In this document: one piece after another, positions 17,436-21,278 of the stretch
Position numbering within the stretch: position 1 is the first letter of the stretch
Layout of the letters: every line of letters starts with the position of its first letter
DNA from: Flavivirga amylovorans
GTDB taxonomy: Bacteria; Bacteroidota; Bacteroidia; Flavobacteriales; Flavobacteriaceae
Direction of reading: 5' to 3'
Assembly (NCBI RefSeq): GCF_030540875.1
Contig: NZ_JAUOEM010000006.1
Span: 1 to 64,000, forward strand
DNA length: 64,000 nucleotides
Translations under genes and position numbers: made by a program
The notes under the pieces: model-generated
Told to the model about the DNA's origin: nothing
The model's input: only the letters and a program-made list of their open reading frames with translations
Database searches by the model: none

Positions 17436-17630
17436 TTAATTAATTAACTCAAAGTAATAACTCACAACTTTACTGAATACTGTATCTACCCCCCAAATTG
17501 CTAAGGAAAATATAATTGAAAATACAGCAACTAAAACCGTTAGACTTTGTGCTTCAGCCCATGATGGCCAACTCACATTGTTTTTAAGTTCTTCAAATGA
17601 TTCTTTTACGTAATTTACAATTCCGGCCAT
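17436..17630 (-). CDS. secE: Preprotein translocase subunit SecE
   Basis: A 64-residue single-span protein: an amphipathic N-terminus (VNYVKESFEELKNNVSWPSWAEAQ) followed by a hydrophobic span (~31-50). It stabilises SecY in the inner membrane. Immediately upstream of nusG, as in most bacteria, and 161 bases downstream of tRNA-Trp. Confidence 0.95.
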   Translation of the reverse strand: MAGIVNYVKESFEELKNNVSWPSWAEAQSLTVLVAVFSIIFSLAIWGVDTVFSKVVSYYFELIN

Positions 17631-17650: not shown

Positions 17651-17790
17651 TTACTTCGATTACTCTTAGTTACAGACTACACTCGATGTAAACTTATTTA
17701 GAAACCTCTCTGTCTCTTATTGTTGCACGGGTTGAGAGACTTACTTCGACTACGCTCAGCATAAACTTCTCACTCACAATCCTTTGCTTC
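17651..17790. repeat. Partial tRNA-Trp 3' end with repeat element
   Basis: 17725-17741 repeats 17791-17807, the 3' terminal part of the tRNA-Trp gene, 66 bases away. The copy breaks at the T-loop and is joined to ACTTCGACTACGCTCAG and a following ATAAACTTCTC. A more decayed relative (TTACTTCGATTACTCTTAG) lies at 17651-17669. The same core recurs beside tRNA-Thr at 19.66 and 19.78 kb. Confidence 0.75.
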
Positions 17791-17791
17791 G

Positions 17792-17864
17792 CACGGGTTG
17801 AGAGACTCGAACTCCCGACACCTGGTTTTGGAGACCAGTGCTCTACCAACTGAGCTAAACCCGT
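17792..17864 (-). tRNA. tRNA-Trp (anticodon CCA)
   Basis: A 73-base cloverleaf: acceptor arms ACGGGTT/AACCCGT, D-arm GCTCAGTTGGTAGAGC, anticodon stem CTGGT/ACCAG around loop CTCCAAA (anticodon CCA), and T-arm with GTTCGAG. Discriminator G. No encoded CCA. It lies between tuf and secE, the standard Bacteroidetes position. Confidence 0.95.
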
Positions 17865-19501: not shown

Positions 19502-19875
19502 AATTAAACTTATTTCACTTTTTTAAAGAACTTAAGTCGAAGAAGAACTTATCCTCAACTACGTTTAGGATAAAACTTCTTGTTCTAAATCAAAAACAGC
19601 CACAAAACCACTTTTAATCTCCTTTACGTTATTCACTTTTTAGAGCCGATGAAGGGACTCCCTTCGACTACGCTCAGGATAAACTTCTCGTCCCAACTAA
19701 CCTTTGTTTTCAAAATAAAACTTAGGATAATTACCTGATACGCTTTTCAAAATTTCAAGAGCCGATGGAGGGACTCCCTTCGACTACGCTCAGGATAAAC
19801 TTCTCGTCCCAACTAACCTTTGTTTTCAAAATAAAACTTAGGGTAATTGCCTGATACGCTTTTCAAAATTTCAAG
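19502..19875. repeat. Tandem 116-bp repeats carrying partial tRNA-Thr 3' ends
   Basis: The motif AGAGCCGATG(A/G)AGGGACTC, the 3' terminal part of the neighbouring tRNA-Thr, starts at 19642 and 19758, and again at 19874 where it runs into the intact tRNA: exactly 116 bases apart each time. After each partial copy come CCTTCGACTACGCTCAGG, ATAAACTTCTCGTCC and an identical AT-rich tail. A decayed relative of the core lies near 19553-19584. No complete tRNA can fold from the partial copies. Confidence 0.85.
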
Positions 19876-19949
19876 AGCCGATGGAGGGACTCGAACCCAC
19901 GACCTGCTGATTACAAATCAGCTGCTCTAGCCAGCTGAGCTACATCGGC
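19876..19949 (-). tRNA. tRNA-Thr (anticodon TGT)
   Basis: A 74-base cloverleaf: acceptor GCCGATG/CATCGGC, anticodon stem GCTGA/TCAGC with loop TTTGTAA, T-arm with GTTCGAG, discriminator T. First gene of the tRNA-tuf-secE transcription unit, 51 bases downstream of its promoter -7 box. Partial copies of its 3' end lie downstream. Confidence 0.95.
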
Positions 19950-20050: not shown

Positions 20051-20353
20051 CTATAAATGTGATCTTAATTTCTCTTTTCTCTTTTTTAGTTGTCTTTCTA
20101 ATGATGATACAGCAACATCTGCTCCTTCTTCAAAACTTTTACATTGTTTCTTAACTACAAAACTATCTCCGGGAACACTTACCCTTGCTTCAAAAATTTT
20201 ATTTTCTTTTTCACTTGTATTTTCTACTTTTAAATAAACATCTGATTTAATAACTTTATCATAAAACATATCTAATTTATCCATGCGCTTTTGAATAAAA
20301 TCAATTAACTTTTGGTCAGCATTAAAATTGACTGATTGCGTGTTTACTTTCAT
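20051..20353 (-). CDS. hpf: Ribosome hibernation-promoting factor (short HPF/RaiA family)
   Basis: A 100-residue protein of the S30AE family. It begins MKVNTQSVNFNADQKLIDFIQKRMDK and ends in a basic tail (RQLKKRKEKLRSHL), matching short HPF proteins that bind the 30S decoding site and stall idle ribosomes. It lacks the C-terminal dimerisation domain of long HPF. It follows xerC by 34 bases and is probably co-transcribed with it; a terminator follows. Confidence 0.9.
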   Translation of the reverse strand: MKVNTQSVNFNADQKLIDFIQKRMDKLDMFYDKVIKSDVYLKVENTSEKENKIFEARVSVPGDSFVVKKQCKSFEEGADVAVSSLERQLKKRKEKLRSHL

Positions 20354-20387: not shown

Positions 20388-21278
20388 CTATTTTTTACTT
20401 CTAGGGTGTGCTTGTATGTGCACTTTTTTTAATTCAGCTATACTATTATGTGTATAAACTTGAGTTGCAGCTAAACTTGAGTGTCCTAAAAGTTCTTTAA
20501 CAGCATTTAAATCAGCACCTTGATTTAACAAATGTGTTGCGAAAGAATGACGCAAAATATGCGGACTCTTTTTAACCTTTGTTGATGCTTCACTAAAATA
20601 CTCATTTATTATTCTGTAAACAAGTGTTTCATAAATTTTAAATCCCTTTTTCGTTAAAAACAGACTATTAGCATCCGTAATACTCTGTAATTCAATTCTT
20701 GAAATCAAATATTTACTCAAAGTGTTGACTACTGAATCTAATAACGGAACGATACGCTCTTTATTTCTCTTACCTAACACCTTTAACGTTTTATTATGAA
20801 GATCTATACTTGCAAGACTCAGTTCAACTAATTCTATTCTTCTAATTCCTGTTGAATAGAAAAGCTCTATAATTAGTTTATTACGAATACTTTCGAAATC
20901 GTCATCAAAATTTAAGTCGTCTAAAACAGTCATTATTTCTAGTTCTGAAAACGGGACTTGGATTTTTTTGCTTGTTTTTAATGCCTTATGTTTTGATAAC
21001 GGATTCAAGTTTATATCCTCAGTTCTTAAAAGAAACTTATAATAGGTATTTAATGCTGATACTTTTCTATTAATACTTCTATTTGACAAGCCTGTTTCTA
21101 CCATATTAACTATCCAACTCCTTATCTGTGAATAATTCACATTCTTTATTATATCTGAGTCATATTCTTCTTTTATAAATTCTGAAAATGTTTCTAAGTC
21201 TTTTTGATATGCATTGACTGTTAATACAGAATATTTTTTCTCTAGTAATAAATAGTCAATAAACGGTTTTAACTGCAT
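20388..21278 (-). CDS. xerC: Tyrosine recombinase XerC
   Basis: A 296-residue site-specific recombinase that resolves chromosome dimers at dif. An N-terminal SAM-like core-binding domain (~1-90) and a C-terminal catalytic domain with R146 in TGIRRIEL, HILRHSFATHLL and GHSSLAATQVYTH, including the nucleophilic Tyr. Housekeeping context (between rpsU and hpf) and normal Xer length argue against a mobile-element integrase. XerC and XerD are hard to separate by eye; XerC is the usual name at this locus. Confidence 0.88.
   Translation of the reverse strand: MQLKPFIDYLLLEKKYSVLTVNAYQKDLETFSEFIKEEYDSDIIKNVNYSQIRSWIVNMVETGLSNRSINRKVSALNTYYKFLLRTEDINLNPLSKHKALKTSKKIQVPFSELEIMTVLDDLNFDDDFESIRNKLIIELFYSTGIRRIELVELSLASIDLHNKTLKVLGKRNKERIVPLLDSVVNTLSKYLISRIELQSITDANSLFLTKKGFKIYETLVYRIINEYFSEASTKVKKSPHILRHSFATHLLNQGADLNAVKELLGHSSLAATQVYTHNSIAELKKVHIQAHPRSKK

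Follow-up and report, generated by a model that had tools for sequence, protein, structure and literature searches.

Results

The tandem array at tRNA-Thr(TGT)

The window, i.e. the whole stretch of 64,000 nucleotides that was analysed, contains an intact tRNA-Thr(TGT) gene on the minus strand at 19875-19949 (ARAGORN; 70.2 bits with the Rfam tRNA model). The 3' end of this tRNA is the 19-mer GAGTCCCTCCATCGGCTCT (minus strand), of which a second copy lies at 19758-19776 and a third copy, differing at one position, at 19642-19660. The starts of the copies are spaced exactly 116 and 116 nucleotides apart. By coordinates G57 of the T-loop is located at 19892 on the minus strand; thus the tRNA tail at 19874-19892 doubles as the first repeat of the array. 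Tandem Repeats Finder reported the array at 19642-19892 with a period of 116, 2.2 copies, 97% matches and a score of 481; the second-best tandem array of the 64-kb window scored 63.

Unit comparison and Tandem Repeats Finder delimited two units of 116 bp on the minus strand. Unit 1 (19777-19892) comprises tail, flank, guide and core, with the guide GGGAC at 19806-19810 and the hairpin core GAGAAGTTTATCCTGAGCGTAGTCGAAGG at 19777-19805. In unit 2 (19661-19776) the nearer of the two additional tRNA 3' ends (19758-19776) comes first, and guide and core (19661-19694) come last. Aligned from T-loop position 57, 114 of 116 positions of the two units were identical. Beyond the last copy of the tRNA 3' end (19642-19660) a decayed third unit was recognized by eye at about 19554-19641 of the same strand, with a degenerate guide and core, TAGAACAAGAAGTTTTATCCTAAACGTAGTTGAG, at 19554-19587. 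The flank of the decayed unit resembles the flank directly 3' of the second tRNA-Thr gene of the genome (L009). The original prediction of a tandem array carrying tRNA-Thr 3' ends with nearly identical spacers was thus confirmed. Its wording of an exact array is good for the spacing, but not quite for the sequence, because the units differ at 2 of 116 positions. The hairpin cores at the junctions, the decayed third unit, the unit at tRNA-Trp and the single-unit loci elsewhere in the genome go beyond it. Upstream of the tRNA operon and outside the array, just beyond a small ORF at 20051-20353, lies an ORF at 20388-21278 (minus strand), which presumably encodes a XerC/D-type tyrosine recombinase-like protein.

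The second host of the element in the window is tRNA-Trp(CCA) (17791-17864, minus strand, ARAGORN), with a single unit of guide, core and tail copy on its 3' side (17725-17776, minus strand). The next ORF after this unit is short (17436-17630) and we take it to be secE. Elsewhere in the genome one unit each was found at the second tRNA-Thr(TGT) and at a tRNA-Gln(TTG). The expectation of similar arrays elsewhere was borne out in part: the same type of unit occurs at other loci, but in this genome these hold one unit each, and multi-unit loci, with up to six units, were seen in relatives.

Anatomy of the unit

Across loci the units are about 62-118 bp long and are built in one order: the tRNA 3' end, counted from T-loop position 57, is followed by the flank, which often contains a terminator, and then by guide and hairpin core. 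The core has the consensus GAGAAG-YYTRT-xyzGAGNNNAGTCGAz'y'x'. The guide consists of a few bases 5' of the core that are complementary to the 3' strand of the tRNA T-stem, and behind the core the tRNA tail follows from position 57. Only guide and core recur at different tRNAs. Most of a unit is tail and flank, with the core at the end. The idea of a minimal tRNA-targeting insertion unit of 116 bp was not supported, as the repeated stretch is not constant.

Among the matches listed in the named genomes 103 distinct units could be aligned without gaps. The search pattern for this set required GAGAAG, YYTRT, GAG, AGTCGA and a T-loop-like RANYC, so these positions are invariant by construction; it left the guide and the three arm pairs open and did not ask that the tail match the upstream tRNA. 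The arm pairs of the hairpin were present in 102, 103 and 100 of the 103 units with two-sided changes at all three. From nt 59 outward the guide pairs were formed in 97, 100, 94, 86, 65, 56, 47 and 44% of the listed units, while the ninth and tenth pairs were about at chance level with 33-36%. Mean contiguous guide pairing was 5.0 bp at the nt 59 register versus 0.0-0.65 at seven other registers. Swapping guides between isoacceptors lowered it to a mean of 2.9 (maximum 3.35 of 500). For the whole structure 246 cells had two-sided changes versus 115 when shuffled (0/500), and 83.5% of the cells were paired versus at most 46.9% when the structure was slid. Guide shuffles within an isoacceptor reached the observed pairing in 0/500 cases for Leu and 0/500 for Gly, and in 23 for Gln, 28 for Trp, 39 for His, 47 for Asn and 114 for Met (each of 500). 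Within the 26 tRNA-Thr loci guide-tail covariation was not above chance (411/500 shuffles); the Thr tails hardly vary.

In four loci (L147, L199, L112 and L127) guide and tail are complementary over 10-13 bases, with G-U counted. Since this pairing extends into the acceptor strand, the guide probably represents a complement of the tail rather than a remnant of the tRNA's T-stem 5' strand.

A long core variant of about 65 nt with a stretch like ATTACTGARAAGCAAAAY..TTTGTYGAAGG was present at some loci, i.e. L009 (about 1820-1915), L019 and L016 at tRNA-Thr and L279 at tRNA-Trp in another genus. At both Thr and Trp the long cores adjoin tail copies of the local tRNA, which are sometimes decayed. 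Judged from the sequences, their presence beside both tRNAs suggests that cores may spread between tRNAs.

Linkage to tRNAs and distribution

A match was considered to be behind a tRNA when ARAGORN called a tRNA on the same strand within 700 nt. A search of the 12 genomes of the genus with the 3' side of the core left unconstrained yielded 30 matches in 11 genomes, and a reversed control pattern had no match in the 12 genomes. Of the 29 matches that were analysed, 28 were behind a tRNA and 26 carried at least 8 nt of the tail of that tRNA. Position 57 stood directly behind the core in 25 of these 26; one was shifted by a single base. The genus of the window includes Flavivirga: sequences of G011 and G009 agree at 100% with F. 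algicola and Flavivirga sp. 57AJ16 over 3021 and 2703 bp, respectively. In a sample of the family the strict motif was found in 26 of 199 genomes and was absent from 173, and again the reversed pattern had no match in the 199 genomes. Thirty-four of 36 occurrences (from 27 loci, with 4 counted twice) were behind a tRNA and 29 of 36 shared its tail. Because the strict pattern misses variants, e.g. the long cores, these genome counts are lower bounds.

The named genomes provided at least 141 matches in at least 117 loci. Among the 141 matches listed, 127 had an upstream tRNA and 120 had at least 8 nt in common with the tail of that tRNA, the shared stretch being 17-18 nt in 87 of these; the tail-sharing matches listed span at least 15 tRNA isoacceptors. 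Fourteen had no called tRNA, and seven had a tRNA but less than 8 nt of tail. The register of the core in this listed set is partly due to construction, as RANYC was demanded; tRNA linkage was tested by the genus and family searches, which lacked this demand. Among the 80 record titles listed were one unplaced bacterium (L110), one Levyibacteriota (L142) and one CPR2 (L168); the others were flavobacteria or Bacteroidota, with the placement into genera being our assumption. L142 (at tRNA-Ile) and L168 (at tRNA-Ser) both have a tail copy, yet their titles may mislead because both are metagenome bins. The strict pattern had no exact match in viral contigs, and on this ground carriage by phages was rejected. 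Taken together, the tandem array of the window is a case of a widespread kind of repeat, in which a conserved hairpin is joined near-invariably at one point to a copy of a tRNA tail.

Where the copied tail starts and ends

The last tail copy and the sequence following it were compared with the preceding unit in 85 arrays from the matches listed. Homology ended within 5 nt of the tail in 34 arrays, in the flank or terminator in 23, in the guide or GAGAAG in 6 and inside the core in 8, while it covered the whole unit in 14. Thus the copied tail has a fixed start at position 57 and a variable end. Attachment sites of integrases, on the other hand, are tail repeats with both ends fixed, and this difference speaks against the tRNA-targeting insertion of the original prediction. 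A plain insertion of a guide-core-tail cassette was rejected as homology continued past the tail in 51 of 85 arrays. Reverse transcription of a mature tRNA as the source of the tail was rejected as well, because there was no excess of CCA (4 copies versus 6 genes of 79). A script detected a terminator-like hairpin between tRNA and core in 52 of 96 first units, when 9.7 were expected from shuffles. All 52 were among the 70 spacers of at least 40 nt and none among the 26 shorter ones. Both the spacer and the end-point counts (96 and 85 kept) omit matches without a tRNA, weak tails and far units.

The 34 arrays that keep a recognizable tail next to a diverged flank imply that simple duplication and even decay are insufficient, unless the tail is refreshed or constrained. 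Tails outlasting their flank suggest refreshing by gene conversion, constraint, or copying of the tail only at birth.

Copy number, growth and decay

At the orthologous tRNA-Thr site of the genus there was no unit in L022 and L023, one unit in L017, L018, L020 and L021, and two units in L014 (the window) and L015. L016 had one clean and one decayed unit, and L019, L024 and L027 had long-core or decayed forms only. Thus the copy-number variation looked for since the original prediction does exist between species, which hold 0, 1 or 2 intact units at this locus. At the tRNA-Trp site the units, as judged by eye, were clean or nearly so in G000, G005, G006, G009 and G010 (three units in G010) and decayed in G001, G002, G003, G004, G007 and G008; G011 had none. 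Outside the genus a long-core unit was present at tRNA-Trp in G017 and a possible relic in G019. In the other relatives shown no unit was seen at this site and the next gene was close behind the tRNA.

The largest array, six units of 109 bp at tRNA-Gln, was that of G193, an assembly of one contig and 99% completeness. Four compared pairs of neighbours were identical at 109, 109, 107 and 108 of 109 positions. G199 had units of 72 bp at tRNA-Trp. Near-identical units fit growth by unequal exchange or slippage, and in this respect the proposal of unequal crossing-over was upheld. We read the array pattern across species as birth, growth and decay and not as steady upkeep. In G003 (L020, 2196-2794) we also observed five extra tRNA-Gly-like genes, spaced by about 131 bp, in the interval from tRNA-Tyr to the main tRNA-Gly. 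They scored 44-48 bits versus 73 for the main one.

Hairpins dispersed in the genome

When up to 2 mismatches were allowed in the hairpin pattern, the genome of the window had 46 matches in addition to the four tRNA-linked ones; the reversed pattern had 9. Dispersed hairpins of the form xyzGAGNNNAGTCGAz'y'x' (e.g. L053-L073) have covarying arms and lack GAGAAG. On their 5' side AGCCTGT, GTTTAT or TGTCA is often found, and four copies (L069-L072) were 93-97% alike over about 170-200 bp. Of 30 hairpin loci in this genome, 27 were without a tRNA tail. One of the 27, located behind a protein gene that we take to be dnaK, is followed by a repeat of its upstream sequence (16/16); for the other 26 the best upstream copy was 14/16, inside the range of control positions. 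The core behind dnaK (G000, C7:116539-116556, in the stretch of about 116500-116580; L044, L266) is without GAGAAG. The last 22 or so nucleotides of the gene including the stop codon are copied again 3' of the core. Hence the layout of core and copied 3' end was also observed on a protein gene.

Discussion

Proposed origin of the units

We favor the view that the units are RtT-like composite repeats of tail and hairpin, which arose when the end of the tRNA was copied again under the guidance of a structure and whose number then changed by unequal exchange; we give this view about the same chance of being right as of being wrong. In this scheme a conserved, REP-like hairpin core lies close behind a tRNA gene, in many cases directly after the terminator, with the adjoining guide complementary to the T-stem 3' strand from nt 59 outward. 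During DNA synthesis the guide may pair with the tRNA tail. Such pairing would bring the growing strand, just after it has copied the core, with its 3' end to T-loop position 57. Copying could restart there, so that the end of the tRNA and more or less of its flank would be synthesized again behind the core. Once two near-identical tails or cores are present, slippage or unequal exchange would add or remove one unit of about 62-118 bp per step, and units may pass between the two tRNA-Thr genes. The anatomy, the fixed start and variable end, the pairing with its covariation, the copy-number differences between species and the decay were observed; the copying step and the first arrival of a core near a new tRNA are inferred.

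Re-copying is favored by the single junction register in searches that did not demand it (25 of the 26 tail-sharing matches of the genus) and by a guide pairing that no pattern demanded and that is confined to the nt 59 register. The variable end of the tail copies, the copy-number differences and decay at the orthologous Thr and Trp sites, the recent growth of the six-unit array and the features shared with E. coli RtT also speak for it. On the other hand, the 34 of 85 arrays with a recognizable tail whose homology stops within 5 nt of it count against re-copying, as do the Thr guides with no covariation above chance, the fall of guide pairing to about chance level at the ninth and tenth pairs, and the units of the window, which fold no better than shuffles. 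In the loci analysed no intermediates of re-copying were observed. The expected ancestor would be a core next to a tRNA whose tail has not been copied, and no clear case of it was seen; L255 (tRNA-Met, 5 nt shared) could be such an ancestor or a decayed unit. We suggest more tentatively that flavobacterial units, the two Patescibacteria-titled records and E. coli RtT might form an ancient element class across phyla, in which guide and hairpin, without encoding an enzyme, would cause the end of an adjacent gene to be copied again by the replication machinery. New guides could then arise by copying of the target tail.

Among the alternatives, a small non-autonomous element moved in trans is the one that fares best, although we consider it rather improbable. 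A Y1/RAYT-like single-strand transposase or another recombinase would recognize guide and hairpin and cut in the T-loop. The order of guide, hairpin and target does resemble the ends of IS200/IS605 elements and REPs, as far as these are described in the available text of PMC6006769. The core occurs at no fewer than 15 isoacceptors and the long core at both Thr and Trp. Y1_Tnp (PF01797, threshold E<=0.001), the sole recombinase family tested, had six matches in the genome of the window and at least one in each of the 12 genomes of the genus. Yet outside the genus 13 of the 24 genomes with the motif lacked it, G193 with its six-unit array among them, and so did 17 of 34 genomes without the strict motif. 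The latter were picked from the 173 genomes without it, some of which hold relics or long cores (G017, G019). Thus there is no association between Y1_Tnp and the motif, and its absence from motif-bearing genomes, among them the single contig of G193, indicates that a resident Y1/RAYT enzyme is not needed for recent growth of arrays. RAYT as the recombinase acting in trans that the original prediction had called for was rejected for this reason; Y1/RAYT could have seeded cores long ago.

The ends of IS200/IS605 elements were also rejected as source of the core after a search of 5-8 kb around each of the six Y1 genes. No match was found in four of these stretches; one had a match without paired arms and one had a dispersed relative without GAGAAG about 2 kb from the gene. 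Within about 1.5 kb of the six genes there was no such hairpin with paired arms. The variable end of the copied tail, the lack of GTAG before the hairpin in all 30 matches of the genome (0/30) and the lack of exact matches in viral contigs are further points against a mobile element.

We regard it as unlikely that the units are maintained as a functional RNA, i.e. that the tRNA transcript carries a conserved 3' structure, like the RtT RNA of E. coli, which selection retains. The covariation of the hairpin arms and of guide and tail fits such an RNA, and three fresh-looking units folded better than shuffles (z of -4.5, -2.6 and -2.3). Because the array is located between tRNA-Thr and tRNA-Tyr on a single strand, co-transcription may occur. 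According to the available text of PMC4986893, RtT RNAs derive from tRNA operons; in Actinobacillus pleuropneumoniae they were detected on Northern blots and are located by tRNA-Asn and tRNA-Lys genes. However, the intrinsic-terminator-like hairpins precede the core in more than half of the first units, the units of the window were no better than shuffles in the proposed stem (z of 0.41 and 0.11), and at tRNA-Trp just 5 of 12 genomes of the genus have units that are clean or nearly so by eye, with the rest decayed or absent. The strict motif is missing from most genomes of the family (173 of 199), though variants escape the pattern. With terminators ahead of the cores and window units that fold like shuffles, RNA structure was rejected as the main constraint.

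Finally, a chance tandem duplication in which guide and hairpin had no special role, followed by unequal crossing-over, matches the near-identical neighbours and the copy-number differences and stays likely for later changes in unit number, but as the origin it is disfavoured and very improbable, because the same breakpoint occurs beside the same hairpin in pattern sets that did not demand it, and neither the spread over 15 or more isoacceptors nor the complementarity of the guide is expected from it.

Comparison with known systems

Integrative elements that target tRNAs by tyrosine integrases commonly use the segment from the T-loop to the 3' end for attachment and duplicate the tail. The flavobacterial units differ in that an integrase gene does not fit into about 62-118 bp, that the end of the tail copy is variable as seen in the 85 arrays, and that the units repeat flank. 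The present units bear on how tRNA 3' ends can be duplicated without integrases.

REP, REPIN and BIME elements with their RAYTs are similar in being short interspersed hairpins with covarying arms. Unlike REPs, the flavobacterial cores have no GTAG tetranucleotide at the foot of the hairpin (0/30 matches in the genome) and no cognate RAYT nearby, a RAYT is not needed, and the cores are joined to copied tRNA ends. A RAYT/Y1 gene, which REPs with RAYTs would require, was found in every one of the 12 genus genomes but was lacking in 13 of the 24 motif-bearing genomes outside it. The available text of PMC2965389 assigns enterobacterial rtT-like elements to the BIMEs. The accessible parts of PMC6006769, PMC3733652 and PMC3116915 do not mention tRNA tails for REP-type elements, and the word tRNA is absent from the main text of PMC6006769 and PMC3116915.

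The closest relative in layout is the tyrT RtT repeat of E. coli K-12 (RttR sRNA; RF00391), the only tRNA-tail/hairpin repeat mentioned in the literature that was searched, mostly papers outside subscription. Here too tandem units, with a spacing of 178 bp, follow a tRNA, and each unit carries the tRNA 3' end copied from the T-loop. The register of the complementarity between the guide, GGGGAAGGAT, and ATCCTTCCCC is that of the flavobacterial units. Behind the guide 3 of 4 units have GAGAAG and one has GAGAAC, and 4 of 4 units have a hairpin xyzGAGCGnnAGCGAz'y'x'. The hairpin pattern was set after the flavobacterial core had been seen and was loosened to admit the spacing of E. coli; shuffles of one E. 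coli core gave such a hairpin in 16 of 5000 cases. On the other hand, the E. coli core is about 89 nt long with more sequence after the hairpin, compared to 29 nt in flavobacteria, and the E. coli tail includes the encoded CCA. The RF00391 covariance model matched 4 of 4 E. coli units and had no match at E<=0.1 on 11 flavobacterial loci; thus the flavobacterial units share the plan of RtT, yet are not members of RF00391 by the test of Rfam. They have tandem units with an upstream tRNA 3' end, a trait read from the E. coli locus, and the same order and register of guide, GAGAAG and GAGCG-type hairpin, a trait defined here and not by Rfam. A near match to the RtT unit was present in 4655 of 5426 E. 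coli genomes at 1-9 places each (median 2); this number, which serves as a proxy for units, thus differs among strains.

Because RtT of E. coli has the same layout, a case that has long been puzzling seems to belong to a larger class. The tyrT/RtT repeats would then no longer be a lone oddity but part of a class with a recognizable anatomy, whose members were found behind at least 15 tRNA isoacceptors and, as judged from sequence comparison, occur in more than one phylum. With a fixed start, a variable end and a guide that matches the tail, it becomes possible to test in a laboratory strain how such repeats originate.
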